Assembly (NCBI GenBank): GCA_011390365.1
Contig: JAABSM010000015.1
Span: 1-57,347 of the forward strand
Source: Gammaproteobacteria bacterium
GTDB lineage: Bacteria > Pseudomonadota > Gammaproteobacteria > Chromatiales > Chromatiaceae
Direction: 5' to 3'
DNA length: 57,347 nt
Shown here: piece after piece, positions 36,760-55,381 of the stretch
How positions within the stretch are numbered: position 1 is the first letter of the stretch
Layout of the letters: every line of letters starts with the position of its first letter
Program-made: the position numbers and the translations under genes
Notes under the pieces: model-generated
Told to the model about the DNA's origin: nothing
Database searches by the model: none
The model's input: the letters and a program-made list of their open reading frames with translations, nothing else

Positions 36760-37827
36760 ATGGAAACTATCCTGAACTTCTGGAACTGGTTGGGCGAGAA
36801 TTTCATCCTCGCCCAGATCCTCATCAAGATCATGGCGATCACCCTGCCGTTGATGGGGCTCGTGGCCTATTTTACCTATGCCGAGCGCAAGATCATCGGT
36901 CACATGCAGGTGCGCATGGGGCCCAATCGGGTCGGTTTCTTCGGCTATCCGCTATGGGGGTTGGGCCAGCCCATCGCCGACGCGGTCAAGCTGATGTTCA
37001 AGGAGATCGTGATTCCGACCGGGGCGAACAAGTTTCTGTTTCTGCTGGCACCCATGCTCACCCTGGGGCCGGCGTTGGCGGCCTGGGCGGTCTTCCCTTT
37101 CGATGAAGGGCTGGTGCTGGCGGATATCAACGCCGGGCTTCTCTACATCATCGCCCTGACCTCGGTGGGCGTCTACGGCGTGATCATCGCCGGGTGGGCC
37201 TCCAACTCCAAGTACGCCTTCCTGGGGGCGATGCGCTCGGCGGCGCAGATCGTCTCTTACGAAATCGCCATGGGCTTCGCGCTGGTGGGGGTGCTGGTCG
37301 CCTCCGGCTCGCTGAATCTTGGCGATATCGTCATGGCCCAGCAAGGGGAGGGCGGCCTCTTCTCCTGGTTCTGGCTGCCGTTGCTGCCGCTATTCGTGAT
37401 CTACTTCATCTCCGGCGTGGCCGAGACCAATCGCGCCCCCTTCGATGTTGCGGAGGGCGAATCGGAGATCGTCGCTGGCTTCCATGTCGAATACTCGGGG
37501 ATGGCCTTCGCCGTCTTCTTCCTCGGCGAATACGCCAACATGATCCTGATCTCGGCCCTCACCGCCCTGATGTTCCTGGGCGGCTGGCTCTCCCCCTTCC
37601 CAGCGAGCTGGGTCGACGGGGTTTGGCTATTGGGCGACGGATTCCACTGGTTGGTTCTCAAGACCCTGATCTTCGGTTTCCTATATCTCTGGTTCCGCGC
37701 CACCTTTCCCCGCTATCGCTATGATCAGATCATGCGTCTGGGCTGGAAGGTCTTCATCCCGATTACCATCGTCTGGATCCTGGTGGTCGCCTTGATGGTG
37801 CTCGGCGATGTCCTGTGGTGGGCGTGA
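36760..37827 (+). CDS. nuoH: NADH-quinone oxidoreductase subunit H
   Basis: A 355-residue polytopic membrane subunit at the junction of the two arms, lining the quinone channel. The signatures are [20 protein letters not shown] and [19 protein letters not shown]. About eight membrane helices are visible. The stop lies 14 bases before the nuoI start. Confidence 0.96.
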
Positions 37828-37840
37828 GGAGGACGAAACG

Positions 37841-38329
37841 ATGCTGAAGACCATGCGTGACTACATCAAGAGCCTGTTTCTGCTTGAGCTTTTCAAGGGG
37901 ATGAAGCTCACTGGCTACTACCTCTTCACCAAGGAGTTTACGGTACAGTACCCGGAAGAGCGGGCGCCGATGTCGCCCCGTTTTCGTGGTCTGCACGCCC
38001 AGCGTCGCTACGAAAACGGCGAAGAGCGCTGTATTGCCTGTAAACTCTGCGAAGCGGTCTGCCCGGCCCAGGCGATTACGATAGAGGCTGAGCCCAGGGA
38101 AGACGGGTCGCGGCGGACCACCCGCTACGACATCGACCTGTTCAAGTGCATCTTCTGCGGCTACTGTCAGGAATCCTGCCCGGTCGACGCCATCGTCGAG
38201 ACCCGGGTCTACGAATATACCCGCGATCCTTCCAATCGCGTCATCGACAAGGAAGAGCTGCTTAAAATTGGCGACAAGTACGAGGCTCAGATCTCAGCGG
38301 ATATCGCGGCACAAGCCAAGCATCGATAA
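37841..38329 (+). CDS. nuoI: NADH-quinone oxidoreductase subunit I
   Basis: A 162-residue ferredoxin-like subunit carrying clusters N6a and N6b. The motifs are [16 protein letters not shown] and [16 protein letters not shown]. The ATG at 37841 follows GAGGAGGAC at good spacing; an earlier in-frame start at 37808 lies within nuoH. The second hicBA pair follows. Confidence 0.96.
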
Positions 38330-38355
38330 GAACATATTGATAGGAGCTAGCAGCC

Positions 38356-38553
38356 ATGCGTTACCGAGTGGTATTGCATCGATCGGAGGAGGGAGTGGCG
38401 GTGTCCGTACCCGGCTTGCCTGGTTGCTGGTCACAGGGGGACAATGACGACGAAGCCCTGGAGAATATTGCTATAGCCATTGAGGAATACATGGAGGCGG
38501 TGAACGAGTTGACGAAGGAAGGGGAAGTACGTTACGTCGAGGCCGCTTCCTGA
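38356..38553 (+). CDS. HicB-like antitoxin inside the nuo operon (pair 2)
   Basis: A 65-residue protein, MRYRVVLHRSEEGVAVSVPG, then LPGCWSQGDNDDEALENIAI. This is the short HicB type found in many TA pairs, without a DNA-binding tail. It starts 26 bases after nuoI and is followed after three bases by the hicA-like gene. It is not similar to pair 1 beyond the fold, so the two pairs arrived separately. Confidence 0.85.
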   Translation: MRYRVVLHRSEEGVAVSVPGLPGCWSQGDNDDEALENIAIAIEEYMEAVNELTKEGEVRYVEAAS

Positions 38554-38556
38554 ACC

Positions 38557-38769
38557 GTGCCGAAAATACCCGGAATAAACCATCAGGATGCGATTCGGGC
38601 ACTGGAAAAGACCGGATTTCGTGTGATTCGACAAGGTAAACACACGATCATGAGTAACGGTGAGAGAATATTGACGATTCCGCGACATAATCCGGTTAAC
38701 GCAATAACCCTGGGTGGTATTGTCCGAGACGCGGGATTAACCGTCGAAGAGTTCAAACAACTGCTGTAA
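38557..38769 (+). CDS. HicA-like mRNA interferase toxin (pair 2)
   Basis: A 70-residue protein starting at GTG 38557. The stretch HQDAIRALEKTGFRVIRQGK and HTIMSNGERILTIPRHNPVN match HicA, with the catalytic His in QGKHTIM. The frame is intact and complete. Stop and nuoJ start are 16 bases apart, so pair 2 sits in the nuo transcript between nuoI and nuoJ. Base composition is more AT-rich than the nuo genes around it, suggesting later arrival. Confidence 0.87.
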   Translation: MPKIPGINHQDAIRALEKTGFRVIRQGKHTIMSNGERILTIPRHNPVNAITLGGIVRDAGLTVEEFKQLL

Positions 38770-38785
38770 AGCGTGATATATCGAT

Positions 38786-39406
38786 ATGTCATTTGAAAAA
38801 TTTCTATTCTACGCCTTCTCGGCGGTGCTGATCTTCGCCGCGGTGATGGTCATCACCCGGCGCAACCCGGTGCATTCCGCGCTCTATCTGGTGCTCGCCT
38901 TTTTCGCCAGCGCCGGCGTCTGGCTGCTCGCCGAAGCGGAGTTCCTCGCCATCGTGCTGGTGCTGGTCTACGTCGGCGCGGTGATGGTGCTGTTCCTGTT
39001 CGTGGTGATGATGCTCGACGTCGATCAGGCGGCGATGCGCGCCGGCTTCATCAAGATGTTGCCGGTGGGTATCCTGATCGGATTGCTGATCGCCGGCGAG
39101 ATCTTCATGGTGGTCGGCCCCGGCACCTTTGGGCTGGATCAGGTCGCCGCCCCCGAGCGGCTGCCGGCGGACGCGCAGAACACCGCGGTCTTGGGCAGTC
39201 TCCTCTACACCGTCTACATGTATCCCTTCGAGGTGGCGGCGGTGTTGCTGCTGGTGGCGATCATCGCCGCTATCGGTCTGACCCATCGCCGCCGCGGCGA
39301 TGCCACCAAGTACATCGACGTCGCCAAGCAGGTGAGCGTGCGCAAGGGTGAAGATCGGGTCAAGCTGGTCGACGTGCCCTCGGAAGAGAAGATGGAGTTG
39401 AAATGA
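38786..39406 (+). CDS. nuoJ: NADH-quinone oxidoreductase subunit J
   Basis: A 206-residue membrane subunit with five helices. The conserved third helix is in [20 protein letters not shown], containing the pi-bulge region. The ATG overlaps nothing upstream (hicA ends at 38769); the stop overlaps nuoK by four bases (ATGA). Confidence 0.95.
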
Positions 39407-39708
39407 TTGCCCTGTCCGATTACCTGATCCTCGCCGCGATCCTCTTCTCCCTGAGCATCGTCGGGATCTTCATCAACCGCAAGAACGTCATCATCCTGCT
39501 GATGTGCATCGAACTGATGCTGCTGGCGGTCAACATCAACTTCATCGCCTTCTCCCACTTTCTGGGCGACGCGGTGGGGCAGGTGTTCGTGTTCTTCATT
39601 CTCACCGTGGCGGCGGCCGAAGCGGCCATCGGCCTGGCGATACTGGTGGTGCTGTTCCGCAACCGCCGTACCATCAACGTCGAAGAGCTGGACAGCCTGG
39701 CCGGCTGA
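39403..39708 (+). CDS. nuoK: NADH-quinone oxidoreductase subunit K
   Basis: A 101-residue subunit with three membrane helices. The membrane Glu residues needed for proton transfer are in [16 protein letters not shown] and [13 protein letters not shown]. It starts inside the end of nuoJ. Confidence 0.96.
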
Positions 39709-39735
39709 CGGACCGAAGTAGAAGCTGGAAAGCCT

Positions 39736-41718
39736 ATGAAGACCATCTACCTCTTGATTGCACTCATGCCCCTTGCCGGGGCGATCATTGCCGGGTTCTT
39801 CGGCGGTCGCATCGGTCGTGCCGGGGCGCACTGGGTCACCAGCGCCGGCGTCGGCATCTCCGCCGCGCTGTCGCTGTATGTGCTGGCCGGTTTCGTCGGC
39901 GGCAACATCGAGCCTTTCAATGGCAGCGTCTACACCTGGATGGTGAGCGATGGCCTGACCATGGAGATCGGCTTCCTGGTCGATGAGCTGACGGCGATGA
40001 TGATGGTGGTGGTCACCTTCGTCTCCTTCTGCGTGCATATCTACACCATCGGCTACATGGCCGACGACGCCCACAACTGGCCCAAGGAGAGCCTGGCCGG
40101 CAAGAATAGCTATCAGCGTTTCTTCAGCTACATCTCGCTGTTCACCTTCTCCATGCTGATGCTGGTGATGGCCAACAACTTCTTGCAGCTCTTCTTCGGC
40201 TGGGAGGCGGTGGGCCTCGTCTCTTATCTGCTGATCGGCTTCTGGTCGGTGCGTCCCACCGCCATCTTCGCCAACCTCAAGGCCTTTTTGGTCAACCGGG
40301 TGGGTGATTTCGGCTTTATCCTCGGCATCGCGGCGGTGGCGATGTACTTCAACAGCCTCGACTATGCCGAGGTCTTCGCCCAGGCCCCGGGTCTGGCCGA
40401 CAAGCAGATAACCCTCTGGGGCGATCACTCCTGGTCGCTGATGACGGTGATCGGCATCCTGCTTTTCATCGGCGCGATGGGCAAGTCGGCCCAGGTCCCG
40501 CTGCATGTCTGGCTGCCCGACTCCATGGAGGGCCCGACCCCCATCTCGGCCCTGATCCACGCCGCGACCATGGTGACCGCGGGTGTCTTCATGGTGGCGC
40601 GCATGTCGCCGATCTACGAATTCACCGAGACGGCGCTCACCTTTATCCTGGTGATTGGCGCCACCACCGCCTTCTTCACCGGCTTGATCGGTCTGGTGCA
40701 AAACGACATCAAGCGGGTGGTCGCCTACTCGACCCTCTCCCAGCTCGGCTACATGATGGTGGCGCTGGGCGTCTCCGCCTACGCCGCCGGCGTCTTCCAT
40801 CTGATGACCCACGCCTTCTTCAAGGCGCTGCTGTTCCTCGCCGCGGGCTCGGTGATCATCGGCATGCACCACGATCAGGATATCCGTAACATGGGCGGCA
40901 TCAAGAAATACATGCCCATCACCTGGATCACCGCGCTTCTTGGCTCGCTGGCGCTGATCGGCTTCCCCGGCTTTTCGGGCTTCTTCTCCAAGGATGCGAT
41001 CATCTCCGCGGTATCCCACTCGCAGATCGCCGGTTCCGGCTACGCCTATGTGCTGGTGGTGCTTGGGGTCTTCGTTACCGCCCTCTACAGCTTCCGGATG
41101 TACTTTCTGGTGTTCCATGGCGAGGGACCCCGCGACGAGCACGCCAAGGCGCATCTCCACGAGTCGCCCAAGGTGGTGACCATTCCGCTGATCCTGCTCG
41201 CCATCCCGTCGGTCTTCGTCGGTATGTTCACCGTCGGTCCCATGGTCTTCGGCGACTGGTTCAAGAATGCGATCTTCGTGTTGCCCGAGCATGATACCCT
41301 TGGCGCCATCGGCTATCAGGGGGTAGGCTGGTTCCTTGGTCACGGCTTCATGACCGCCCCCTTGTATCTTGCCCTGGGCGGACTTGGCGTTGCCTACTAT
41401 ATCTACATGAAGAAGCCGGAGATCGCCGACAAGGCCAAGGATATGGCCGGGCCGATCTACACTCTGCTCGACAAGAAGTACTGGGTGGACGAGATCTATC
41501 AGGCGGTCTTCGCCGGCGGTAGCCGCGGGCTCGGCAAGGTGTTCTGGTTCGTCGGCGATCGGGTGTTGATCGACGGCCTGGTGGTCAATGGCGCCGCCAA
41601 GTCCATCGGCTGGTTCGCCACCGTAGTCAGGCATCTCCAGTCCGGTCTCCTCTACCACTACGCCATCGCCATGTCGTTGGGGCTGCTGCTGCTCCTCACC
41701 TGGTTCGTGATTCTCTGA
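39736..41718 (+). CDS. nuoL: NADH-quinone oxidoreductase subunit L
   Basis: A 660-residue antiporter-like proton pump subunit with about 16 membrane helices. The key Glu is in FGWEAVGLVSYLLIG and the Lys in GAMGKSAQVPLHVWLPDSME. The C-terminal lateral helix and anchor end in LLLLLTWFVIL. It is the most distal pump in complex I. Confidence 0.96.
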   Translation: MKTIYLLIALMPLAGAIIAGFFGGRIGRAGAHWVTSAGVGISAALSLYVLAGFVGGNIEPFNGSVYTWMVSDGLTMEIGFLVDELTAMMMVVVTFVSFCVHIYTIGYMADDAHNWPKESLAGKNSYQRFFSYISLFTFSMLMLVMANNFLQLFFGWEAVGLVSYLLIGFWSVRPTAIFANLKAFLVNRVGDFGFILGIAAVAMYFNSLDYAEVFAQAPGLADKQITLWGDHSWSLMTVIGILLFIGAMGKSAQVPLHVWLPDSMEGPTPISALIHAATMVTAGVFMVARMSPIYEFTETALTFILVIGATTAFFTGLIGLVQNDIKRVVAYSTLSQLGYMMVALGVSAYAAGVFHLMTHAFFKALLFLAAGSVIIGMHHDQDIRNMGGIKKYMPITWITALLGSLALIGFPGFSGFFSKDAIISAVSHSQIAGSGYAYVLVVLGVFVTALYSFRMYFLVFHGEGPRDEHAKAHLHESPKVVTIPLILLAIPSVFVGMFTVGPMVFGDWFKNAIFVLPEHDTLGAIGYQGVGWFLGHGFMTAPLYLALGGLGVAYYIYMKKPEIADKAKDMAGPIYTLLDKKYWVDEIYQAVFAGGSRGLGKVFWFVGDRVLIDGLVVNGAAKSIGWFATVVRHLQSGLLYHYAIAMSLGLLLLLTWFVIL

Positions 41719-41734
41719 AGGTTAGGAATTATCC

Positions 41735-43249
41735 ATGTTTGAATGGCCCCTTCTCAGCTTCGTCATCTGGTTGCCCATCGTCGGCGGCTTCATGGTGCTG
41801 GCCTCCGGCGACAAGGCCGCCGACGCCAGTCGCTGGACCGCCCTTGGCGTAAGCATACTCACCTTTCTGATGAGCCTCCCGCTGTGGTTCGCCTACGACG
41901 CCTCCACCGCGGAGATGCAGTTCGTGGAGCGGGTGGCGTGGATCCCCGCCTTCAACATCGAGTACTACCTGGGCGTGGACGGCATCTCCATGCCGCTGAT
42001 CATCCTCACGACCTTCATCACCATCTTCGTGATCGTCGCCGGTTGGGAGGTCATTCAGCACAAGCCTTCCGTCTACATGGCCTCGTTCCTGATCATGGAA
42101 GGGATCATGGTGGGGGTCTTCTCGGCGCTGGACGCGATGCTCTTCTATGTCTTCTGGGAGGCGATGCTGATCCCGATGTTCCTTATCATCGGCATCTGGG
42201 GCGGACCGAATCGGGTCTACGCCACGATCAAGTTCTTCCTCTACACCTTCTTCGGTTCGGTGTTCATGCTGGTCGCGCTGGTCTACATGTTCCTCCAGAG
42301 CGGAAGTTTCGACATCCTCGGCTTCCACACCCTCAAGCTGGGGCTGACCGAGCAGATCCTGATCTTCCTCGCCTTTCTGCTCGCCTTCGCGGTCAAGGTG
42401 CCGATGTTCCCGGTCCACACTTGGCTGCCCGACGCCCACGTCGAGGCCCCCACCGGCGGCTCGGTGATCCTGGCGGCGATCATGCTCAAGATCGGCGGCT
42501 ATGGGTTCCTGCGCTTCTCCCTGCCGATTACGCCGGATGCCAGCGCCCACCTCGACTGGCTGATCATCCTGCTGTCCCTGATCGCGGTGGTCTATATCGG
42601 CTTCGTCGCCCTGATTCAGCAGGACATGAAGAAGCTGATCGCCTACTCGTCGATCGCCCACATGGGCTTCGTGACCCTCGGCTTCTTCATCGTATTCTTG
42701 ATCGCCAACAATCCCGACGCCAACGGCGGCGCGGCGCTGGGCGTGCAGGGGGGCATGGTGCAGATGATCTCCCACGGTTTCATTTCGGCCGCGATGTTCC
42801 TGTGTGTCGGCGTACTCTATGACCGGGTCCACAGCCGCGAGATCAGCGCCTACGGCGGCGTCATCAACACCATGCCGGTCTTCGGCGCCTTCATGGTCTT
42901 CTTCGCCATGGCCAACGCCGGCCTGCCCGGCACCTCCGGCTTCGTCGGCGAGTTCATGGTGATCCTGGCCAGCTTCCGCGCCGACTTCTGGTACGCCCTG
43001 CTGGCGGCGACCACCCTGATTATCGGCGCGGCCTACACCCTGTGGATGGTCAAGCGGGTGGTTTTTGGCCAGGTCGCCAACGACAACGTGGCGGCGCTCC
43101 AGGATATCAACAATCGCGAGCTGTTCATCCTCACCTCCCTCGCGTTGGCGGTATTGATCCTCGGTCTGTGGCCGGCGCCGCTGGTGGAGGTGATGGATGC
43201 ATCGGTCCACAACCTCCTGCAGCACATCGCCATCACCAAGATTCCCTGA
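41735..43249 (+). CDS. nuoM: NADH-quinone oxidoreductase subunit M
   Basis: A 504-residue antiporter-like subunit with about 14 helices. The conserved Glu is in YVFWEAMLIPMFLIIGIWGG and the Lys in AFAVKVPMFPVHTWLPDAH. A short gap separates it from nuoL and nuoN. Confidence 0.96.
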   Translation: MFEWPLLSFVIWLPIVGGFMVLASGDKAADASRWTALGVSILTFLMSLPLWFAYDASTAEMQFVERVAWIPAFNIEYYLGVDGISMPLIILTTFITIFVIVAGWEVIQHKPSVYMASFLIMEGIMVGVFSALDAMLFYVFWEAMLIPMFLIIGIWGGPNRVYATIKFFLYTFFGSVFMLVALVYMFLQSGSFDILGFHTLKLGLTEQILIFLAFLLAFAVKVPMFPVHTWLPDAHVEAPTGGSVILAAIMLKIGGYGFLRFSLPITPDASAHLDWLIILLSLIAVVYIGFVALIQQDMKKLIAYSSIAHMGFVTLGFFIVFLIANNPDANGGAALGVQGGMVQMISHGFISAAMFLCVGVLYDRVHSREISAYGGVINTMPVFGAFMVFFAMANAGLPGTSGFVGEFMVILASFRADFWYALLAATTLIIGAAYTLWMVKRVVFGQVANDNVAALQDINNRELFILTSLALAVLILGLWPAPLVEVMDASVHNLLQHIAITKIP

Positions 43250-43280
43250 GACACCAGGTAATTCATTCAGGTATTCATCC

Positions 43281-44717
43281 ATGACGTTCGATCCCATGCA
43301 CCTGATCCCGGTCGCGCCGGAACTCTTCCTCCTCACCGCGGCCTGCGCGATTCTGGTAATCGACCTGTTCCTCAAAGACGAACAGCGCGAGGCCACCTAC
43401 ATCCTCGCCCAGATCGCCCTCATCGGCACCGCCTCGCTGGCGCTGCTGGTCGGCGGCGGCGAGCGCCAGGTAGTATTCAGCGGCAGCGTCATTCGCGACG
43501 GCATGACCGATCTGCTCAAGGCCTCCATCTGCGTCATCGCCTTCGGCGCGTTCCTCTACGCCAAGGAGTATCTCAAGGATCGCAACCTCTTCAAGGGCGA
43601 GTTCTACACCCTCGGCATGTTCGCGGTGATCGGCATGCTGATCATGGTCAGCGCCGGCGACTTCCTCACCGTCTACCTCGGCCTGGAACTGCTCTCCCTC
43701 TCCCTCTACGCCCTGGTCGCCTTCGATCGTGAATCGGGGCGCGGCTCGGAAGCGGCGATGAAGTACTTCGTGCTCGGGGCCATCGCCTCCGGCATGCTGC
43801 TCTACGGCATCTCCATGATCTACGGCGCCACCGGTTCCATCTCCTTCGCCGGCATCGCCGAGGCGATCGCCAACGACGCGGTCAACAACACTATCATGGT
43901 CTTCGGTACCGTCTTCGTGGTGATTGGTCTTGCTTTCAAGTTCGGCGCGGTCCCCTTCCACATGTGGGCGCCGGATGTCTACGACGGCGCCCCTACCGCC
44001 GTCACCATGATCATCGCCTCCGCCCCCAAGATCGCCGCCGTCGCCATGGCCATCCGCATCCTCGGCGAGGGTCTCGGCGGCATCAACGCCGACTGGCAGG
44101 GCATGCTGGTGATCCTGGCGGTGCTCTCCATGGCGCTGGGCAACGTGGTCGCCATCGCCCAGAGCAACATCAAGCGCATGCTCGCCTACTCGACCATCTC
44201 CCACGTCGGCTTCATCTTCCTGGGTCTGCTTGCCGGCAGCCAGAGCGGCTACGCCTCGGCGATGTTCTACGCCATCACCTATGCCCTCACCGCCCTGGGC
44301 GCCTTCGGCATCATCATCCTGCTCAGCCGCAAGGGCTTTGAGGCGGATCGTCTTGATGACTTCCGCGGCCTCAATCAGCGCAGCCCCTGGTTCGCCGCCA
44401 TGATGCTGCTGCTGATGTTCTCCATGGCCGGCGTCCCCCCCACCGTCGGCTTTTTCGCCAAGCTCTTCGTCCTCGAAGCCGCCATCCGCGTCGACCTCAC
44501 CTGGCTGGCGATCGTAGCCGTGTTCTTCTCCGTCATCGGCGCCTTCTACTACCTGCGCATCGTCAAGCTGATGTACTTCGACAAGCCCGCCGACTCCGCC
44601 CCCCTGCAAGCAGGCATGGACACCCAGATCGCCCTCTCCGTCAATGGGCTCGCCATGCTTGCATTGGGGATCTATCCGGCGGGGCTGATGGCCTGGTGTG
44701 TCGCCGCGGTGGCGTGA
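43281..44717 (+). CDS. nuoN: NADH-quinone oxidoreductase subunit N
   Basis: A 478-residue antiporter-like subunit. The ATG at 43281 (MTFDPMHLIPVAPELFLL) fits the family; an in-frame ATG at 43197 lies inside nuoM. Conserved sites include LGLELLSLSLYALVAFDRES and FKFGAVPFHMWAPDVYDGAP. It is the last gene of the nuo operon; no clear terminator is seen after it. Confidence 0.96.
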   Translation: MTFDPMHLIPVAPELFLLTAACAILVIDLFLKDEQREATYILAQIALIGTASLALLVGGGERQVVFSGSVIRDGMTDLLKASICVIAFGAFLYAKEYLKDRNLFKGEFYTLGMFAVIGMLIMVSAGDFLTVYLGLELLSLSLYALVAFDRESGRGSEAAMKYFVLGAIASGMLLYGISMIYGATGSISFAGIAEAIANDAVNNTIMVFGTVFVVIGLAFKFGAVPFHMWAPDVYDGAPTAVTMIIASAPKIAAVAMAIRILGEGLGGINADWQGMLVILAVLSMALGNVVAIAQSNIKRMLAYSTISHVGFIFLGLLAGSQSGYASAMFYAITYALTALGAFGIIILLSRKGFEADRLDDFRGLNQRSPWFAAMMLLLMFSMAGVPPTVGFFAKLFVLEAAIRVDLTWLAIVAVFFSVIGAFYYLRIVKLMYFDKPADSAPLQAGMDTQIALSVNGLAMLALGIYPAGLMAWCVAAVA

Positions 44718-45016: not shown

Positions 45017-45670
45017 CTACCATTCAAAATCCGGCAGATCGGTGTTATCCACCAAATCCCTCACCTTGCCGCCGAGATCCTTGGCTTGTTGTTCAATAGC
45101 GCTGGAAAATACCCTATATTCGCTAGATAAAGGATCCATGGATCTCAAACTCATTGGCAGGCTCGCGAACCTTGACGCCGGATCGGTGATTGAAACGTAT
45201 TTCCTGATGACTTCGGTAAGGTAGAGTGTATGATAGCCGACAGGCAACTGTAAGGGCATGTTTAACCAATCGATGCACTCTCTTCCTATTGCGGGATCAA
45301 CCTCTACCAATGCCTTCTCCAGGCACGATTCTAGCCGGTACAAGTTTGCTTGTTGCTCTTTTGTTGTGGGCTGGTATGACGCCATACCTCTAAGCACACG
45401 TAACTGGAACAAGATTATTGGCCAAAAATGCCTTTCACCCTTATATAAAACGCTGTCGTACTCATCTTCACCAAAAGCCCTCTCCTCCCTCCTTCGTTCA
45501 TATGACTTGCGAATGTCGTAGGCCAGCGCAAGCAGCCCCTCGGCGGTTTCTTCATTATGGTTGCTATTTTCAACCAGATCATGGACTGTGCCGTACAGGC
45601 TCGTTAGGTCCCAATAATCTCCCCACAATGTGATTCCGCCATTATGTTCAGTTGTTGTTACTAATAACAT
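45017..45670 (-). CDS. Uncharacterised protein, possible orphan cassette
   Basis: A 217-residue protein from the ATG at 45670, preceded by CAGGAGAAA. An earlier in-frame ATG at 45718 lacks such a site. It opens LLVTTTEHNGGITLWGDYWD with a likely helical core (YDIRKSYERRREERAFGEDE). The opening resembles a family of uncharacterised proteins (DUF6904, from memory), so function is unknown. Its base composition is clearly more AT-rich than the nuo and hyb genes on either side and it runs against them, so it was probably acquired. An attC-like palindrome lies just upstream of its start. Confidence 0.75.
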   Translation of the reverse strand: MLLVTTTEHNGGITLWGDYWDLTSLYGTVHDLVENSNHNEETAEGLLALAYDIRKSYERRREERAFGEDEYDSVLYKGERHFWPIILFQLRVLRGMASYQPTTKEQQANLYRLESCLEKALVEVDPAIGRECIDWLNMPLQLPVGYHTLYLTEVIRKYVSITDPASRFASLPMSLRSMDPLSSEYRVFSSAIEQQAKDLGGKVRDLVDNTDLPDFEW

Positions 45671-45701
45671 CGATTTCTCCTGGTTTTCTGCTTGACGACT
45701 A

Positions 45702-45786
45702 TGCTCACCGCCCAACAAAGCGGCGGGGTTGGAGCATAGCGGAAACCGCGCCGCTTTTGTTGGGTCCGAGTGCAGCGGTTTGTTAT
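45702..45786 (-). repeat. attC-like imperfect palindrome
   Basis: Read on the minus strand, ATAACAAACCGCTGCACTCG begins the element, CCCAACAAAAGCGGCG pairs with CGCCGCTTTGTTGGG, and GGTT/AACC extend the stem. Beginning and stem resemble integron attC (VCR-like) sites, but the closing GTTRRRY core is not present. It precedes the AT-rich unknown gene. It may be a decayed cassette recombination site or another palindromic repeat. Confidence 0.35.
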
Positions 45787-46418: not shown

Positions 46419-47543
46419 ATGAGCGGGCCAGATTTTTCCTATCTTGAAAAGCGCCTGGGGGTTTCCCGACGCACCTTTCTGAAATTCTGCACCGGCGTCG
46501 CCGCCACCATGGGGCTGCCGACCAGCGCGGCCTATGCCATGGCCGAGGCGGTGGCGACCAAGCGCAAGAAGCCGGTGGTGATCTGGCTGCACGGCCAGGA
46601 GTGCACCGGTCCCTCCGAATCGCTGCTGCGTTCCGAGCATCCCACCCTCGATCGACTGATCCTGGAGATGATCTCGCTGGAGTACCACCAGACCCTCGAC
46701 GCCGGGGCGGGGCACGACGTGGAGCATCACAAGGATGTGATGATCGAACAGAATAAGGGCGAGTACCTGCTGGTGGTGGAGGGCTCGGTGCCCGTGGCCC
46801 AGGACGGCATCTTCTGCAAGATCGGCAACAAGACCATGCTGGAGCACACCACCGCGGCGGCGGAGCATGCGGCGGCGATCATCGCCTTCGGCTCCTGCGC
46901 CTCCTGGGGCGGGGTGCAGTCCGCCGCGCCCAACCCCACCCAGGCGGTAGGAGCGCAGGCGGTGCTGCCGGGCAAGACGGTGGTGAATATCCCCGGTTGT
47001 CCGCCTAACCCCTACAACTTCCTGGCCACGGTGATGCACTTCCTCACCTTCGGCTCACTCCCCGCGCTGGATACCCAGAACCGCCCGAAGTTCGCCTACG
47101 GTCGCCTGATCCACGAGAATTGCGAGCGCCGCCCCCACTTCGACGCCGGCCGTTTCGCCGAGACCTTCGGCGACGAGGGCCACCGGCTGGGCTGGTGCCT
47201 CTACAAGCTCGGTTGCAAGGGGCCGGAGACCTATGCCAACTGTCCGGCGGTGGAGTTCAACGACATCGGCGGCGGCACCTGGCCCATCGGCGTCGGCCAT
47301 CCCTGCTTCGGCTGTGTCGAGCAGGGGGTGGGATTCACCAAGCCGCTGTTCAGCCTGGCGGAGGTGAAGACCCATACCCCGCCCAATGCCTTCCCTACCA
47401 TCGACCAGCGCGAAGAGTCGCCTACCGCCACCGCGGCTACCGCCGGGGTGATCGGCGCGGCGGTGGGCGCGGCGGTGGGGGCCACCGCGATGGCGGCCAG
47501 GAAGGTGCACGAAAACGACAACGCATCCGGTTCGAACCAGTAA
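46419..47543 (+). CDS. hybO: [NiFe]-hydrogenase small subunit, Hyb type
   Basis: A 374-residue iron-sulfur subunit that carries electrons from the NiFe site. The Tat signal SRRTFLKFC is at residues about 16-24, so it is exported folded with HybC. Canonical ligands present: C62 (ECTG), GSCASWGG, IPGCPPNP (proximal); HENCERRPHFD, GWCLYKLGCKG (distal); YANC, HPCFGC (medial). The motif reads ECTGPSES: residue 65 is Pro where group 1 enzymes have the second proximal Cys (ECTGCTES in E. coli HybO). Overall sequence otherwise follows HybO closely, including a C-terminal hydrophobic anchor rich in Gly, Ala and Val. GGAGG precedes the ATG. Confidence 0.94.
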   Translation: MSGPDFSYLEKRLGVSRRTFLKFCTGVAATMGLPTSAAYAMAEAVATKRKKPVVIWLHGQECTGPSESLLRSEHPTLDRLILEMISLEYHQTLDAGAGHDVEHHKDVMIEQNKGEYLLVVEGSVPVAQDGIFCKIGNKTMLEHTTAAAEHAAAIIAFGSCASWGGVQSAAPNPTQAVGAQAVLPGKTVVNIPGCPPNPYNFLATVMHFLTFGSLPALDTQNRPKFAYGRLIHENCERRPHFDAGRFAETFGDEGHRLGWCLYKLGCKGPETYANCPAVEFNDIGGGTWPIGVGHPCFGCVEQGVGFTKPLFSLAEVKTHTPPNAFPTIDQREESPTATAATAGVIGAAVGAAVGATAMAARKVHENDNASGSNQ

Positions 47544-47556
47544 GGGGGACGGGGCC

Positions 47557-48561
47557 ATGAATCGTCGCGATTTTCTCAAGGCCGCCGCCGGCGGGGCCGC
47601 CGTGGCGTGCAGCGGCGGCGCGCAGGCGCGGGACAACCTGGAGCCGGCCCCGGAGGCGGTGGGCATGCTGTTCGACTCCACCCTGTGCGTGGGCTGCAAG
47701 GCCTGTGTCAGCATGTGCAAGGAGGTCAACGGCATGCCGCCAACCCTCATCGAAGGCAAGGAGGCCTGGGACTGGGCTACCGATCTCTCGCCCCAGACCC
47801 TGAATGTGATCAAGTTGTACAAGGATGGCGAGGGCAACGTCAAGGACCAGGTGAAAGACGGCTTCGCCTTCGAAAAGCGCAGTTGCATGCACTGCGTTGA
47901 CCCCGGCTGCGTTTCGGTCTGCCCGGTGACGGCGCTGCGCCGCCACCCCGTCACCGGCATCGTCACCTTTCATGTGGACGCCTGCATCGGCTGCCGCACC
48001 TGCACCACCGGCTGTCCCTACAACGTCCCCCATTTCGATTACGACGACCCCTTCGGCCAGATCTATAAGTGCGAAATGTGCAATCAGGAGGGGGTGAGCC
48101 GTATCGATAACGGCCAGATCACCGGCTGCGCCGAGGCCTGCCCGACCGGCGCGACCCTGTTTGGCTCACGCGTGGCGCTGCTCGAAGAGGCCAAGCGGCG
48201 CATGGCGCTGAAACCCGGCGATACCTATAACTACCCGATGGGCGACGTGCGCAAGCCCGGCAGCTACCACGAAAAGGCCACACCCGTCTACGAAAAGCAC
48301 ATCTGGGGCGAGAAGGAGGCGGGCGGCACCAACGTCATGCACATCTCCGCGGTGCCCTTCGACAAGCTGGGCATGCCGCCGCTGCCGGAACGCTCCTACG
48401 CGTCGATTTCCGAGGGCGTGCAGCACACCCTCTACAGCTTCATGGCGCTACCGGCGGTGGCCCTGATAGGGCTGAGTTACGTGGTGCGCAAGAACCTGGA
48501 TGCGTCGGAGGGAGAGACGGACGTGAGCGACGACGAGGGTAAAGAGGAGGAGAAGTCATGA
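47557..48561 (+). CDS. hybA: Hydrogenase-linked ferredoxin-like protein HybA
   Basis: A 334-residue electron carrier with a Tat signal (RRDFLKAAAGGAAVA). Four clusters are implied by CVGCKACVSMC, CMHCVDPGCVSVCP, CIGCRTCTTGCP and the KCEMCN...CAEACP pair. A single C-terminal membrane helix (FMALPAVALIGLSYVV) anchors it. It would pass electrons from HybO to HybB and the quinone pool. The stop overlaps hybB by four bases. Confidence 0.93.
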   Translation: MNRRDFLKAAAGGAAVACSGGAQARDNLEPAPEAVGMLFDSTLCVGCKACVSMCKEVNGMPPTLIEGKEAWDWATDLSPQTLNVIKLYKDGEGNVKDQVKDGFAFEKRSCMHCVDPGCVSVCPVTALRRHPVTGIVTFHVDACIGCRTCTTGCPYNVPHFDYDDPFGQIYKCEMCNQEGVSRIDNGQITGCAEACPTGATLFGSRVALLEEAKRRMALKPGDTYNYPMGDVRKPGSYHEKATPVYEKHIWGEKEAGGTNVMHISAVPFDKLGMPPLPERSYASISEGVQHTLYSFMALPAVALIGLSYVVRKNLDASEGETDVSDDEGKEEEKS

Positions 48562-49697
48562 GCCACTACCAACCCGTCGAGCGCAAGGTCGTCACCGTCC
48601 CGTTCATGGTATTGGGGCTGATCGCCATGGTCGGCCTCTACTTTCTGGTGCAACGCTTTATCCTGGGCATGGGGCCGGTTACCAACCTTAATGGCGGCTA
48701 CGCCTGGGGTATCTGGGTGGTCTACGACATCGTCGTCGGCACCGCCCTGGCCTGCGGCGGTTACGCGCTGGCGATTACCGTCTATGTCCTTAACAAGGGC
48801 AAGTACCACCCGCTGATCCGCGCCGCCGTCACCGCCAGCCTGCTGGGCTACGCCCTCGGCGGCGTCGGGGCCTTCATCGACATGGGCCGCTGGTTCCAGT
48901 TCTACAACATCCTGCTGCCCTGGAACATGAACTTCAACTCGGTGATGCTGGAGGTGGGGCTGTGCGTGATGACCTACATCCTGGTCCTCTTCATCGAGTT
49001 CATGCCCACGGTGTTCGAGCGTTTCGGCATGAAGGATTGGGCCCAGCGACTCAACAAGGTGCTGTTCCTGTTCATCGCCTTGGGCATCCTGCTGCCCACC
49101 ATGCACCAGTCTTCGCTGGGTTCGATGCTGATCGCCATGGGCTACAAGGTGCATCCGCTGTGGCAGTCGCTGCACCTGCAACCGCTGCTGGCGTTGCTGA
49201 CGGCGCTGACCATGGGTTTCGCCATCGTCATCTTCGAGGCCTCCTTCTCCACCGTCGGCTTCGGGCGCAACTCCGAGACCAAGCTCCTCTCCGGCTTGGG
49301 CAAGGGGATCATCGGTCTGGTCAGCGCCTATCTGATCTTCCGCTTCGGCGAGATCCTGCTGCGCGGAAAGTTCGGGCTGATCTTCGCCGGCGACCTGGGA
49401 TCGCTGATGTTCATCATCGAGACGGCCATGTTCATCTTCCCGCTGGCGGTACTGCTCTCGCCGAAGATGCGCGAGGATGGCCGCATGCTGCTCTATGCCG
49501 GGGTATCGCTGCTCTTTGCCGGCGCCCTCTATCGTTTCAACGCCTACCTGATCACCATGGATCCGGGGCCTGGATACAGCTACTTCCCGTCCTTTCCGGA
49601 GTTGATGGTCACGGTGGGTCTGGTGGCCATTGAGATCATGGCCTATCTGGTGATCGTGAAGAAGTTTCCGGTGTTGCCCAAGCACGCCCACGCCTGA
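48558..49697 (+). CDS. hybB: NrfD-family membrane subunit HybB
   Basis: A 379-residue polytopic protein with about ten membrane helices. NrfD-family proteins contact quinone without haem. Features include AWGIWVVYDIVVGTALACGG and WFQFYNILLPWNMNFNSVML. Its use in place of a cytochrome b makes this a Hyd-2-like (group 1c) rather than Hyd-1-like enzyme. Confidence 0.93.
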   Translation: MSHYQPVERKVVTVPFMVLGLIAMVGLYFLVQRFILGMGPVTNLNGGYAWGIWVVYDIVVGTALACGGYALAITVYVLNKGKYHPLIRAAVTASLLGYALGGVGAFIDMGRWFQFYNILLPWNMNFNSVMLEVGLCVMTYILVLFIEFMPTVFERFGMKDWAQRLNKVLFLFIALGILLPTMHQSSLGSMLIAMGYKVHPLWQSLHLQPLLALLTALTMGFAIVIFEASFSTVGFGRNSETKLLSGLGKGIIGLVSAYLIFRFGEILLRGKFGLIFAGDLGSLMFIIETAMFIFPLAVLLSPKMREDGRMLLYAGVSLLFAGALYRFNAYLITMDPGPGYSYFPSFPELMVTVGLVAIEIMAYLVIVKKFPVLPKHAHA

Positions 49698-49860: not shown

Positions 49861-51567
49861 GTGACGACACGCATTACTGTAGACCCGGTGACCCGCATCG
49901 AAGGGCATCTGCGCATCGATGTGGAGGTGGGCGACGAGGGCAAGGTCACCAAGGCCTGGTCCTCGGGCCAGATGTGGCGCGGCATCGAAAAGATCCTGGT
50001 GGGGCGCGACCCGCGCGAGGCCTGGCTCTTCACCCAGCGCTTCTGCGGCGTCTGCACCACGGTGCATGCCATCACCTCGGTGCGCGCGGTGGAGAACGCC
50101 CTGGGCATGGAGGTGCCGGTCAACGCCCAACTGGTGCGCAACATCATCCAGACCGCCCACGCCATTCAGGACCACATCGTCCACTTCTACCACCTCTCCG
50201 CGGTGGATTGGGTGGACGTGGTCTCGGCGCTAGACGCCGACCCCAAGAAGACGGCCCAGCTCGCCGAATCCCTCTCCGACTGGTCCCTCAACGGCCCCCA
50301 CGAGATGAAGGCGGTGCAGGACCGGCTCAAGGCCTTCGTCCAGGGCGGCCAGCTCGGCCCCTTCGCCACCGGCTACTGGGGCCACCCGGCCATGAAGCTG
50401 CCGCCGGAGGTCAACCTGCTCGGCGTGGCCCACTACCTCCAGGCGCTGGAGGTGCAGAACTACGCCAACAAGATCGTCGCCGCCCTCGGCGGCAAATCGC
50501 CGCATATCCAGAACCTGGCGGTGGGCGGCATCTCCAACTCCATCAACATGGACAGCCAATCGGTGCTCAACATGGAGCGGCTGATGCTGATCAAGGGCTG
50601 GATCGACAAGCTCGACCACTTCGTGAAATCGGCCTACATGACCGACGTGCCCGCCATCGGCGCCTTCTATCTGGATTGGGCCGGCTACGGCAAGGGGGTG
50701 AACAACTACCTCTCCGTGCCCGACTGTCCCCAGGACGCCGCGGGCACCCTCTTCGACCTGCCCGGCGGCTATATCGAGAACGGCGATCTCGCCACCTTCA
50801 AGCCGATCAAGACCCACGGCGACGCCTACTTCCGCGACGGCGTGGCCGAGTCCTCCAAACACGCCTGGTACCACGGCGAAGCGGCGCTCCACCCCTACCA
50901 GGGCGAGACCGAGCCCAACTACACCGACTTCCAGGACGAGGGCAAATACTCCTGGGTCAAGGCCCCCACCTTCTACGGCAAACGCGCCCAGGTCGGTCCG
51001 CTGGCCAACGTCTTCGTGATGGTCGCCTCCGGCCACGAAGGGGCCAAAAAGTATCTGGACGAGGCCATGGGCACCCTGCGCGGCGTCTCCGGCAACCCCG
51101 ACATCCCCATCGCCGCCCTGGAATCCACCATCGGCCGCCACGCCGCTCGCGCGGTGCGCTGCGCGGTGATGATGGACACCGTGAAAGAGCAGTGGCAGAA
51201 ACTGGTGGACAACATTGCGACAGGAGATACGGATACCTTCAACGCCCCGGTCTTCCCCAAGGGCGAGGTGCAGGGCTTCGGCTTTCACGAGGCCCCGCGC
51301 GGCGCGCTCTCCCATTGGGTGGTGATCGAAGACGCCAAGATCAAGAACTACCAGGCGGTGGTGCCCAGCACCTGGAACTCTGGCCCCCGGGATCAGAACG
51401 ACGAACTCGGCCCCTACGAGGCCTCCTTGATGGACAACCCCGTGGCCGATCCCAAAAAGCCGCTGGAGGTGCTGCGCACCGTCCACTCCTTCGACCCCTG
51501 CATCGCCTGCGCCATCCACATGGTGGATACGGAGCAGAAGGAGATCGTCAAGGTCAAGGCGCTGTAA
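49861..51567 (+). CDS. hybC: [NiFe]-hydrogenase large subunit, Hyb type
   Basis: A 568-residue subunit holding the NiFe(CN)2CO active site. The start is GTG 49861 behind AGGAGA. Ligand motif L1 is RFCGVCTTVHA and L2 is DPCIACAIH; all four Cys are present. After the final His a 15-residue tail (MVDTEQKEIVKVKAL) remains, the peptide removed by the HybD protease once nickel is loaded. RIEGHLRID is the N-terminal family motif. It is exported with HybO through the HybO Tat signal. Confidence 0.96.
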   Translation: MTTRITVDPVTRIEGHLRIDVEVGDEGKVTKAWSSGQMWRGIEKILVGRDPREAWLFTQRFCGVCTTVHAITSVRAVENALGMEVPVNAQLVRNIIQTAHAIQDHIVHFYHLSAVDWVDVVSALDADPKKTAQLAESLSDWSLNGPHEMKAVQDRLKAFVQGGQLGPFATGYWGHPAMKLPPEVNLLGVAHYLQALEVQNYANKIVAALGGKSPHIQNLAVGGISNSINMDSQSVLNMERLMLIKGWIDKLDHFVKSAYMTDVPAIGAFYLDWAGYGKGVNNYLSVPDCPQDAAGTLFDLPGGYIENGDLATFKPIKTHGDAYFRDGVAESSKHAWYHGEAALHPYQGETEPNYTDFQDEGKYSWVKAPTFYGKRAQVGPLANVFVMVASGHEGAKKYLDEAMGTLRGVSGNPDIPIAALESTIGRHAARAVRCAVMMDTVKEQWQKLVDNIATGDTDTFNAPVFPKGEVQGFGFHEAPRGALSHWVVIEDAKIKNYQAVVPSTWNSGPRDQNDELGPYEASLMDNPVADPKKPLEVLRTVHSFDPCIACAIHMVDTEQKEIVKVKAL

Positions 51568-52215: not shown

Positions 52216-52354
52216 ACCACGGAGAACACAGAGCGCACAGAGAGAGTCGCGTGCATCAACCGTAAGCTGAGTGTTTTCGGGTGGTAGGTGCAGTCCACCG
52301 TGCGTTGGAGGAGAGATATCATCCTTCCTCCGTGATCTCTGTGTTCTCTGTGGT
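52216..52354. repeat. CACAGAG palindromic repeat, copy 6
   Basis: Arms ACCACGGAGAACACAGAG (52216-52233) and CTCTGTGTTCTCTGTGGT (52337-52354) match as inverted repeats at 17 of 18 positions, enclosing about 100 bases. It fills the gap before hybD. Confidence 0.8.
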
Positions 52355-52404: not shown

Positions 52405-52959
52405 ATGATTGAACCCACAAGACCCCGCGTCCTCCTGATCGGCCTCGGCAATGTCCTGATGCAGGACGAAGGGGTAGGGGTGCGCGCGGTGGAGCGGCTG
52501 GAGAGTCGCTACCACCTGCCTCCCGAAGTGGAGGCGGTGGATGGCGGCACCTCGGGGACCGAGCTGCTGGCGCCGATGCGCGGCGTCGAGCGGCTGATCG
52601 TCGCCGATGCGGTCAACACCGGCGCGCCGCCCGGCACGCTGGTCAGACTGGCGGACGAAGAGGTCCCGGCCTTCTTTCAGACCAAGCTCTCCAACCACCA
52701 ACTGGGCCTGTCGGACCTGCTAGCGGTGTTGACCGTCACCCACCAGGCCCCCAGGCACATCGCCATCATCGGCATGGTCCCCCACCAGCTTGAAAATAAA
52801 CTCGGCCTCTGTGAAGAGACCGAGGCCCGGCTCGAAGAGATGGTGACGATGTTGCTGGACGAACTGGCGGCGATCGGCATCCACCCCGAGCCCCGCGACA
52901 AACCCCTGCCCGGTTTCTGGGCGACCCAAGCCGCGCTGGAGGCAAAGGCATGTGCATAG
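52405..52959 (+). CDS. hybD: Hydrogenase maturation protease
   Basis: A 184-residue endopeptidase of the HybD/HupD family that trims the C-terminal peptide of the HybC precursor after nickel insertion. LIGLGNVLMQDEGVGVRAVE holds the nickel-sensing Glu, VADAV the Asp and SNHQLGL the His. It overlaps hypC by ten bases. The substrate tail is present on the hybC product. Confidence 0.93.
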   Translation: MIEPTRPRVLLIGLGNVLMQDEGVGVRAVERLESRYHLPPEVEAVDGGTSGTELLAPMRGVERLIVADAVNTGAPPGTLVRLADEEVPAFFQTKLSNHQLGLSDLLAVLTVTHQAPRHIAIIGMVPHQLENKLGLCEETEARLEEMVTMLLDELAAIGIHPEPRDKPLPGFWATQAALEAKACA

Positions 52960-53237
52960 GCATCCCCATGCAGGTCATCGAAGATAACGGGTTTTCGGCC
53001 CTGTGTCGCGGCAACAACGGCGACCAGCGGGTCAACATGATGTTGATCGGCCCGCAACCCGTAGGGACCTGGATCATCAACTTCCTCGGCTCCGCCCGCG
53101 AGGTGGTGAGCGAGGAGGACGCCCGCAAGATCGATAGCGCCCTCGACGCCCTCTCGGCGGTAATGAGTGGCGAGGAGGAGATCGACGTCGCCCGCTACTT
53201 TCCCGATCTGGCGCCGGCCAGCGAGGGCGTGCGATAG
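52950..53237 (+). CDS. hybG: HypC/HybG-family hydrogenase chaperone
   Basis: A 95-residue protein starting MCIGIPMQV; Cys2 is the residue that carries the Fe(CN)2CO group from HypD to the large subunit. VGTWIINFLGSAREVVSEED is the family core. HybG (dedicated to Hyb) and HupF or HypC are not distinguishable with certainty from sequence alone; context favours the hyb enzyme. hybE follows directly. Confidence 0.88.
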   Translation: MCIGIPMQVIEDNGFSALCRGNNGDQRVNMMLIGPQPVGTWIINFLGSAREVVSEEDARKIDSALDALSAVMSGEEEIDVARYFPDLAPASEGVR

Positions 53238-53813
53238 ATGGCCGATCTGGAACACCTTTCGGCACGGGTAGAGGCCTGCTTTCAGCGCATCCTTGACGAA
53301 AAGATGGTCGGCATCCCCATCCTTAACCGCGAGTTGGGGGTCCAGGCCGAAGGCTTTCATCTCTGGGAAGGTCGCCCGCTGGGCATCATCATCACCCCTT
53401 GGCTGATGAGCCTGATGCTCTTCCCCGAGGACACCGACGAATGGGACCAGGGCCTATTGGGCAGTCGCCAATCCTTCTCGCTGCCGGCCCGGGATTACGC
53501 CTTCACCCTCAACGAGTTCGACGAACTGGGGCGTTGCTACACCCACTCCCTCTACTCGCCGATGTTCGATTTCACCGACCAGGGCTCCGCGCTGGCGATG
53601 GCGAAGGTGGTGTTGACCCAGATCCACCAACCGGTGGAGCTGTCCCAGCCCAGCGACGAAGAGCGCCGTATCGACGCCTACATGAGGCAGCAGGCGATGT
53701 TCGATCCCGAACCGGAACCGCCCCCCAAGCCCTCCAAACTCAGCGAAAACGAACGGCTCAGCCGGCGCGAACTGCTGTTTGGCGCGCTGCGTGCGGACGG
53801 GGATGGAAAATGA
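53238..53813 (+). CDS. hybE: [NiFe]-hydrogenase assembly chaperone HybE
   Basis: A 191-residue protein of the HybE/HupJ family. The central region EGFHLWEGRPLGIIITPWLM and the stretch LPARDYAFTLNEFDELGRCY match HybE. The family is linked to Tat-export quality control of small and large subunits. A Pro-rich segment (PEPEPPPKPSK) and a SRRELLFG end complete it; the latter looks like an HupJ-type tail. It directly follows hybG. Confidence 0.88.
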   Translation: MADLEHLSARVEACFQRILDEKMVGIPILNRELGVQAEGFHLWEGRPLGIIITPWLMSLMLFPEDTDEWDQGLLGSRQSFSLPARDYAFTLNEFDELGRCYTHSLYSPMFDFTDQGSALAMAKVVLTQIHQPVELSQPSDEERRIDAYMRQQAMFDPEPEPPPKPSKLSENERLSRRELLFGALRADGDGK

Positions 53814-53849
53814 GTGCTGGTTGGGCAGTGTCCACAAGGAAACGCTTCA

Positions 53850-54055: not shown

Positions 54056-54091
54056 CTGCTCTGTGGTTTTATTCTCTGAATTGACTTGCGG

Positions 54092-55381
54092 ATGAGCATG
54101 AATCCCGAAGGCCAACTCACTATCACCCTGAAGCGAGGAGCCCACCAAGGCTGTTGGGCGGACATTCGCTCCTCCCGCCCCCTATCCCTGCCGCGCATCT
54201 TCCACGGCAAATCCGTCGACCACCTGCTGGCCACCCTCCCCATGCTCTACCGGGTCTGCGGCGCCGCCCAAGGGGTCGCGGCCGTATCCGCCTGCGAACA
54301 GGCGCTGAAGATCGAGCCCGACGCCGAGGTGTCGCGACGACGGGCCAAGCTGGTGTGGCTGGAGACCGCCAAGGAGCACCTGTGGCGTATCCTGACCGAC
54401 TGGGGGCCATTGATCGACTATCGACCGGAACCGGAGCTGGTCGGCCAGATCCGCCAGTTGCAGGAGCGAGGCCGACGTATCCTCTTTGGTATCGAAGACC
54501 CCTTTCGCATCCATGCGGCGGCGGATCGTCTGCCACTCCTCTCCGAGCCCCTCCCGCAACGCCCCTCTGCCCGCGGGAGAGGGATTGGGATGATGGCCGA
54601 AGGGGAGGGAAGGGCGACATTGCCCGGTTCATGCGCCGCCTATCCCCAGGCAGAGGAGTGGCGCGCCCTGATCCGGGATATCGAACTGCTGCTCGGTCGC
54701 CTGCTGTTTGGTGAAACCCCGCGAAGCTGGCTCGCGAGAGACAACCCGATCCAATTTCGCCAATGGCTCGAACAGGGTCGGGAACTCGCCTCCGGCGCCT
54801 TGCGCTGGGTGGAAGAGAGGGGCTGGGAACGACTGGGAGACGCCCCCGTCGCGTTGCTGGAAGAGGGGGCTTCTCTCGCTCTGGAACCCCTTTTGCACGG
54901 CGAAGGCGCGGCCCGGTTCATCGCCGCCCCGGTCTGGCAAGAGACCCCCAGAGAGACCGGCGTGCTCGCCAGAAATGACACCCATCCCATGGTCAGCATG
55001 GCGATCCGGACCTGGGGCAACGGCCTCATGACCCGCATGATCGCCAGGCTCACCGAGCTGGCCCGGCTGCCGGGTTTGCTGGAAGAGGAGGGCGGGCCTC
55101 CCTCCACCCGCGCCGCTCGCGGATCCCTTCCCGGAACCGGCATCGCCAGCGTGCAGGCCGCCCGCGGCCTGCTGGTTCACCGCGCCGTCATCGACGGCGA
55201 GCGGGTAGAGGGCTACGCCATCCTCGCCCCCACCGAATGGAATTTTCATCCCCAAGGGGTCGTTGCCGGCGCACTGGCCACACTCAACGGAGAAGATGAG
55301 GCTGTATTGCGCCAACAGGCCAGCCTGCTGATCGGCGCCATCGACCCCTGCGTGGGATATGCGCTCGTGATCAGGGGATAA
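54092..55381 (+). CDS. hupK: Hydrogenase accessory protein HupK
   Basis: A protein of about 429 residues, distantly related to the hydrogenase large subunit. It keeps degenerate versions of the ligand motifs: RVCGAAQG (L1-like) and DPCVGYAL near the C-terminus (L2-like, one Cys). HupK/HoxV proteins act as scaffolds for the Fe(CN)2CO part of the active site. Start codons TTG 54086, ATG 54092 and ATG 54098 are all possible. A GC-rich repeat segment (about residues 150-180, bases 54540-54625) is inserted in frame and reads as low complexity. Hyb-type operons of E. coli lack hupK, so this cluster is mixed. Confidence 0.85.
   Translation: MSMNPEGQLTITLKRGAHQGCWADIRSSRPLSLPRIFHGKSVDHLLATLPMLYRVCGAAQGVAAVSACEQALKIEPDAEVSRRRAKLVWLETAKEHLWRILTDWGPLIDYRPEPELVGQIRQLQERGRRILFGIEDPFRIHAAADRLPLLSEPLPQRPSARGRGIGMMAEGEGRATLPGSCAAYPQAEEWRALIRDIELLLGRLLFGETPRSWLARDNPIQFRQWLEQGRELASGALRWVEERGWERLGDAPVALLEEGASLALEPLLHGEGAARFIAAPVWQETPRETGVLARNDTHPMVSMAIRTWGNGLMTRMIARLTELARLPGLLEEEGGPPSTRAARGSLPGTGIASVQAARGLLVHRAVIDGERVEGYAILAPTEWNFHPQGVVAGALATLNGEDEAVLRQQASLLIGAIDPCVGYALVIRG
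54540..54625 (+). repeat. GC-rich hairpin repeat inserted in frame in hupK
   Basis: CCCTCTGCCC...GGGAGAGGG at 54563-54583 is a near-perfect palindrome, followed by ATTGGGATGATGG. It is the same layout as the element in the WD40 gene. The peptide encoded (PLPQRPSARGRGIGMMAEG) has no counterpart in the flanking hupK pattern. Confidence 0.65.

Follow-up and report, generated by a model that had tools for sequence, protein, structure and literature searches.

Proline replaces a proximal-cluster cysteine in a widespread group of Hyd-2-like [NiFe]-hydrogenase small subunits

A Hyd-2-like operon with proline at the proximal-cluster site

The hydrogenase operon described here lies on the forward strand of a 57,347-nucleotide stretch of a Chromatiaceae genome (contig JAABSM010000015.1), which we refer to as the window. 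It opens with a hybO-like gene for a small subunit of 374 amino acids (46419..47543), identified from its open reading frame, its matches in the PDB, and the TIGR00391 (hydA) profile, on which the protein scores 475.3 bits against a cut-off of 179.5 and thereby joins the small-subunit family. The genes that follow encode HybA, a ferredoxin-like electron transfer subunit (47557..48561; NF008134), the membrane subunit HybB (48558..49697; NF008133), a HybC-like large subunit with a GTG start (49861..51567), a HybD-type maturation protease (52405..52959; TIGR00140), a HypC/HybG-type chaperone (52950..53237; TIGR00074), and a HybE-type assembly chaperone (53238..53813; TIGR03993), each above the cut-off of the profile named. 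The placement of hybA and hybB between the small- and large-subunit genes is that of Hyd-2 (Hyb-type) operons, and the order hybO-A-B-C-D is the same as in Escherichia coli. The Tat signal region of HybO is intact, and the large subunit has the CxxC and DPCxxC motifs that bind the NiFe site, in the form CGVC and DPCIAC. Since neither HybO nor HybC reaches its NCBIfam Hyd-2 equivalog cut-off (510.7 against 659 for NF007779 and 867.4 against 969 for NF007778, respectively), we call the enzyme Hyd-2-like.

The original prediction, made from the letters of the window, placed a motif ECTGPSES with C62 and P65 at the proximal-cluster site of this subunit, and the bases at 46599..46622 (gag tgc acc ggt ccc tcc gaa tcg) indeed encode E61 through S68 in this form. 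The best sequence matches in the PDB are Hyd-2/HybO chains (5xvb, 6gam, 6ehq, 6en9, and 6g7m; E 6e-132 to 4e-124), and in the three alignments shown, ECTGCTES faces ECTGPSES, so the cysteine that a CxxC motif leads one to expect at P65 is present in these relatives. P65, encoded by CCC at 46611..46613, therefore replaces the second proximal cysteine, and owing to it, the four-cysteine proximal cluster of Hyd-2 enzymes is not found in the window's HybO. The proximal ligands that remain are C62 (46602..46604), C160 (46896..46898), and C194 (46998..47000). The other clusters have H232, C235, C260, and C266 (distal) and C275, C296, and C299 (medial), an assignment of columns that we take from group 1 structures.

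The proline variant is widespread and maintained

We scanned 84,980 species, each represented by one genome, with a degenerate DNA pattern for Q-E-C-T-G-P-x-E. The scan returned 72 loci. At 64 of them the match falls within a gene for a HybO homolog that carries Pro as its second proximal residue, and the other eight showed no HybO homology. Pro-type loci occur in the Gamma-, Beta-, and Alphaproteobacteria, and among their sources are Candidatus Thiodiazotropha, Candidatus Sedimenticola, Thiothrix, clam gill symbionts, Magnetovibrio, and Terasakiella, as well as Rhodoferax, Rhodocyclaceae, Comamonadaceae, and Methylocystaceae; one isolate accounts for at least two of the 64 loci (L077 and L095). 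Among the first 31 loci read, Pro was present in four, namely the window's own (L001) and three from the same family (L003, L004, and L005), whose small subunits are 91, 72, and 71% identical to that of the window. HybO relatives as such were found in 68 of the 369 genomes of a class sample (E 1e-70 or better), 60 of the 196 of an order sample, and 12 of the 398 of a phylum sample (both E 1e-110 or better), with the motif read in part of these matches. One genome (G408) carries both types, L132 with Pro and L143 with Cys.

A lineage-wide variant and a sequencing error had both been offered as accounts of P65. The relatives bear out the former, in that Pro65 is common to them and the Pro sequences group together on a tree (see below). 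An error of sequencing or assembly at 46611-46613 can practically be dismissed: Pro recurs in many assemblies, at 64 of the 72 pattern loci and in a relative as close as L003, and it is encoded by four different codons (CCC 35, CCG 16, CCT 9, and CCA 8 in 68 unique Pro sequences). Moreover, TGC and CCC differ by two bases, so a single base error is no explanation. The gene had also been judged free of decay, and substitution rates agree. Between the window and L192, dN is 0.053 and dS 0.30; seven more close pairs gave dN of 0.001 to 0.06 against dS of 0.04 to 1.9, and dN was low against dS in every tested pair with an estimable dS. The Pro type is thus a maintained variant, the product of neither decay nor error.

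Ligand conservation and phylogeny

Hits of at least 44% identity were kept for comparison, giving 197 loci with a small subunit and 93 with a large subunit, and 191 of the 197 small subunits entered the alignment (length at least 300, coverage at least 270). We use 1c-like as a working label for sequences whose tblastn identity to the window's small subunit exceeds 54%. The 1c-like set has 156 rows, 99 of them unique (68 Pro and 31 Cys). Columns were counted over 132 unique rows of the 191 (67 Pro, 31 Cys 1c-like, 33 other Cys, and 1 Gly), the unique Pro rows numbering 67 rather than 68 because de-duplication used another stretch. For the large subunit, 70 of the 93 sequences were used (42 Pro, 27 Cys, and 1 unlabeled), of which 69 are unique (41, 27, and 1).

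That the other cluster ligands are intact, as the original prediction stated, holds across the whole Pro set. None of the 67 unique Pro rows departs from Cys at any remaining cluster Cys column, and all 106 Pro rows, duplicates counted, have His at H232. A threshold of 30% Cys or more among the 67 Pro rows yields columns 24, 62, 133, 160, 194, 235, 260, 266, 275, 296, and 299. Apart from column 24 (Cys in 22 of 31), each of these is likewise Cys throughout the 31 Cys 1c-like rows, and no substitute Cys elsewhere in the small subunit was seen among them. The NiFe-binding cysteines of the large subunit that were counted are kept as well, columns 62 and 65 being Cys in 41 of 41 unique Pro rows and column 550 in 40 of 41, with one gap.

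The small-subunit tree was built from 110 rows with columns 65, 91, 94, and 96 left out, by a quick search with midpoint rooting. On it, the 68 unique Pro rows require a single label change, and Pro and Cys are again separated by one change on the large-subunit tree. Sister to the Pro rows are the sequences of one genus within the window's family (L006, L168, L171, and L205), which carry Cys and are ≈70% identical. The branch uniting the Pro rows with one further sequence, L011, has an SH-aLRT support of 85, and that of the Pro rows minus L011 has a support of 0; counting the Gly of L011 as a third state raises the small-subunit tree to two changes. This sequence, which also appears as L203 (G001:C86:1-3394), belongs to the window's genus and is a divergent hybO-like gene with the motif HCGGGS, hence Gly at position 65. 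Its small subunit has EERR-type repeats at the C-terminus and a branch length of 3.24 on the tree, and a hybC-like gene with RVCGEC and DPCMVC follows directly after it.

Residues that track Pro65

Among the 329 columns from 12 to 340, only two are reciprocally fixed between the 68 Pro and 31 Cys rows, column 65 (Pro or Cys) and column 91 (Gln or Glu). In the set of 132 unique rows, P65, Q91 (46689..46691), and D94 (46698..46700) are the only residues that every Pro row has and no Cys 1c-like row shares. Column 91 is Glu in 31 of 31 Cys 1c-like rows and His, Asp, or Glu in more distant Cys rows. All 67 unique Pro rows have Asp94, whereas none of the 64 unique Cys rows does (0 of 31 1c-like and 0 of 33 other), column 94 being varied among the Cys 1c-like sequences. 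The changes to P65, Q91, and D94 all fall on one branch. The number of such columns is unremarkable by itself, since other groups on the tree have as many or more: of 106 splits (each side counted, repeats retained), 81 lack diagnostic columns altogether and 25 have at least one, with 6 for a 59-row Pro subset, 5 for a 6-row set, and 12 or 13 for small sets. Judged from the alignments and trees, the change from Cys to Pro is fixed in grouped sequences, is under constraint, leaves the other ligands intact, and is linked with Q91 and D94.

Another carboxylate, E121 (46779..46781), is invariant in the 67 unique Pro rows and common outside them (Glu in 20 and Asp in 11 of the 31 Cys 1c-like rows, and Glu in 15 of the 33 other Cys rows). 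Position 66 (46614..46616 in the window), whose serine had been put forward as a replacement ligand, is Thr in 42 and Ser in 25 of the 67 unique Pro rows and Thr or Ser in 31 of 31 Cys 1c-like rows. The hydroxyl therefore does not track the change from Cys to Pro, and the column counts lead us to reject Ser66 as a co-varying ligand. The proposal of a three-cysteine cluster or one with another ligand thus survives in part: one proximal Cys has become Pro, and Ser66 falls away as its substitute.

The large subunit shows its own differences. Phe61 (50041-50043), adjoining the NiFe-binding CGVC, is present in 41 of 41 Pro rows, in contrast to Ile in 27 of 27 Cys rows, and Glu53 and Gln103 (50167-50169) are each found in 40 of 41 Pro rows, with Asp and His, respectively, in 27 of 27 Cys rows. 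Gln103 stands at the first His of the His-rich motif. According to a Thiocapsa study, this motif faces away from the small subunit and only its second His significantly affects activity, so a part for Gln103 in the cluster story is unlikely. We likewise do not rely on Q91 as an element of a proton path, given the His, Asp, or Glu of distant Cys rows; a Glu46, of unstated subunit, does feature in a route proposed for Desulfovibrio.

Predicted structure around the site

An AlphaFold model of the window's HybO is of mediocre quality (mean pLDDT 62, pTM 0.66; 60 for residues 61-70 and 52 for residues 91-100). Foldseek placed Hyb-type chains first, with a TM-score of ≈0.46 by query length and 0.62 by target length, which confirms the fold only. 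The predicted strands end at residues 58, 90, 121, 157, and 191, and each of the three remaining proximal cysteines comes three or four residues after a strand (1, 4, and 5). D94 lies four residues past strand 2, and E121 is the end of strand 3. These positions, at low local confidence, would put D94 and E121 at the cluster edge of the sheet, and as invariant carboxylates there, either could serve as ligand to a fourth iron. In the Hyd-1-type row L013, the residue opposite E121 is the Glu of the LAVE motif, making E121 the equivalent of Glu76 of O2-tolerant enzymes. By the start of the alignment, C62 corresponds to Cys17, which would put P65 at the Cys20 position.

Comparison with known hydrogenases

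The nearest solved relatives by sequence and fold are the Hyd-2 enzymes (HybOABC) of E. coli and Citrobacter (6ehq and 5xvb). E. coli Hyd-2 (L209) has Cys65, Glu91, and Ser94 where the window has Pro65, Gln91, and Asp94, and its proximal cluster is described as a standard [Fe4S4] cluster (PMC5900901). The O2-tolerant group 1d enzymes (Hyd-1 and MBH) have the Glu76 equivalent in common with the window. Their two extra cysteines, in contrast, are absent, the window having G64 and G165 where L013 has Cys, and an O2-tolerant six-cysteine proximal cluster is accordingly rejected. The Hyb enzyme of Citrobacter S-77 reportedly undergoes a redox-dependent change of its proximal cluster.

A residue other than cysteine at the second proximal position does occur in more distant hydrogenases. 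HofK, an actinobacterial-type enzyme of Cupriavidus necator (5aa5), has CDGDS, its Asp being a ligand of the cluster; the window, with P65, lacks the Asp that marks this type. The group 2a enzyme Huc of Mycobacterium smegmatis (7uur) has CSGNT, with Asn rather than Pro. Huc is distant from the window's HybO (E 5e-23) and forms a different complex without HybA or HybB; the position without Cys is what the two have in common. For Huc, all three clusters are reported to be [3Fe-4S], a type said to work generally at potentials ≈250 mV higher (PMC10017518). In the F420-reducing hydrogenase subunit FrhG, of a different family, the proximal cluster is bound by three Cys together with Asp60, which takes one or other of the Cys positions (PMC3930138). 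A 2014 table of ligand replacements that occur in nature (PMC4070099, Yonemoto et al.) has Asp and Asn, and no Pro, as the second proximal residue, and the same work reports that engineered C81D and C81N enzymes retained activity.

The nature of the proximal cluster

Taken together, these comparisons suggest, with odds slightly on its side in our estimation, a widespread and undescribed Hyd-2-like clade with a three-cysteine proximal cluster. Either nothing would take the place of the missing thiolate, leaving a [3Fe-4S] cluster of high potential, or a carboxylate would do so, Asp94 and/or Glu121. Within this frame, our best explanation, to which we give just short of an even chance, is a working Hyd-2-like (HybOABC) membrane [NiFe]-hydrogenase whose proximal cluster would be held by C62, C160, and C194 and would most likely be [3Fe-4S]. 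Proline cannot bind iron, so the fourth iron would be absent. The logic would be the same as that of the Asn in Huc and of the Pro that takes the place of a medial Cys in ordinary group 1 enzymes, where it goes with a [3Fe-4S] cluster (PMC3701524). A proximal [4Fe-4S] cluster kept by way of a carboxylate from another loop is a less probable but real prospect. Asp94 is universal in Pro rows and absent from Cys rows, and Glu121 is invariant in Pro rows as well; in the predicted model, the one follows and the other ends a strand on the side of the cluster cysteines. FrhG offers a precedent for an Asp on a proximal cluster, and published work on Glu76 puts its side chain ≈4.5 Å from iron in homology models (PMC6981441) and 2.8 Å from the iron that has shifted to the Cys20 backbone in a C. 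necator MBH variant (PMC10583674). Against this, the Asp of HofK occupies the second proximal position itself (CDGD), where the window has Pro, and Glu121 is so frequent in Cys enzymes that it is not special to the Pro clade.

We consider it improbable that the fourth iron of a [4Fe-4S] cluster is instead held, in labile fashion, by Ser/Thr66, water, or hydroxide. Every unique Pro row does offer a hydroxyl at position 66; the Cys 1c-like rows all offer it too, however, so nothing was recruited, and serinyl ligation was unknown in nature as of 2014 (PMC4070099). A loss of normal electron transfer, with the protein decaying or turned to another role such as assembly or sensing, is very unlikely in our judgment. 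In its favor is L203, the divergent pair from the same genus, which has Gly65 and lies on a very long branch, but the Pro enzymes themselves have low dN against dS in all tested pairs with an estimable dS, and the Tat signal region, hybA, hybB, the maturation genes, and the NiFe cysteines of the large subunit are all in place.

Possible consequences of the proline site

The proximal cluster is the first electron stop after the NiFe site, and engineered changes to it shift catalytic bias and oxygen behavior. To our knowledge, natural changes of proximal ligands are few in group 1 enzymes. The window presents such a case: its operon is that of an ordinary Hyd-2-like enzyme except that one proximal ligand is gone, and the replacement probably changes how electrons exit the enzyme. 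If the proximal cluster is [3Fe-4S], as we prefer, the loss of a thiolate at position 65 and of a carboxylate at position 91, with one gained at position 94, would leave less negative charge around it. A higher proximal potential could then draw electrons from the NiFe site toward HybA/HybB and the quinone, favoring H2 uptake, disfavoring H2 evolution, and perhaps improving function at low O2. An uptake bias is thus expected of the Pro-type enzymes. Their O2 behavior could go either way, because the backbone-nitrogen bond at Cys20 that is described for the [4Fe-3S] cluster (PMC10583674) is closed to Pro and the extra cysteines are missing.

Among the matches listed from the open-licence PMC literature, we found no description of Pro at the second proximal position. 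Should the reading hold, the Cys4 [4Fe-4S] and Cys6 [4Fe-3S] clusters would be joined by another proximal-site design that nature uses in group 1, one tuned for H2 uptake in sulfur-oxidizing symbionts and in magnetotactic and other respiring proteobacteria. The behavior of E. coli Hyd-2 should not be assumed for Pro-type enzymes. With a Pro clade, a Cys-bearing sister genus, and a genome (G408) that has both types, the effect of a single ligand becomes testable across natural enzymes.

Neighboring DNA and other observations

The window's genome encodes a second hydrogenase small subunit (L002, G000:C90:1544-2434) with the ordinary ECTGCTES motif. Upstream of hybO, a 233-amino acid open reading frame with no assigned function (45017-45718, reverse strand) separates the operon from genes at 37808-44717, which on reading we take to be nuo-like. 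Downstream of hybE, an open reading frame at 54086-55381 (forward strand) has weak matches to hydrogenase large subunits, the best at 39 bits and far under the cut-off; HupK-like proteins are of this kind. Between hybC and hybD lies an inverted repeat (52216-52354) with 27-nucleotide arms that are 85% complementary and 85 nucleotides apart, and a 20-nucleotide stretch resembling it (CAACCACGGAG...) is found again at 53848.
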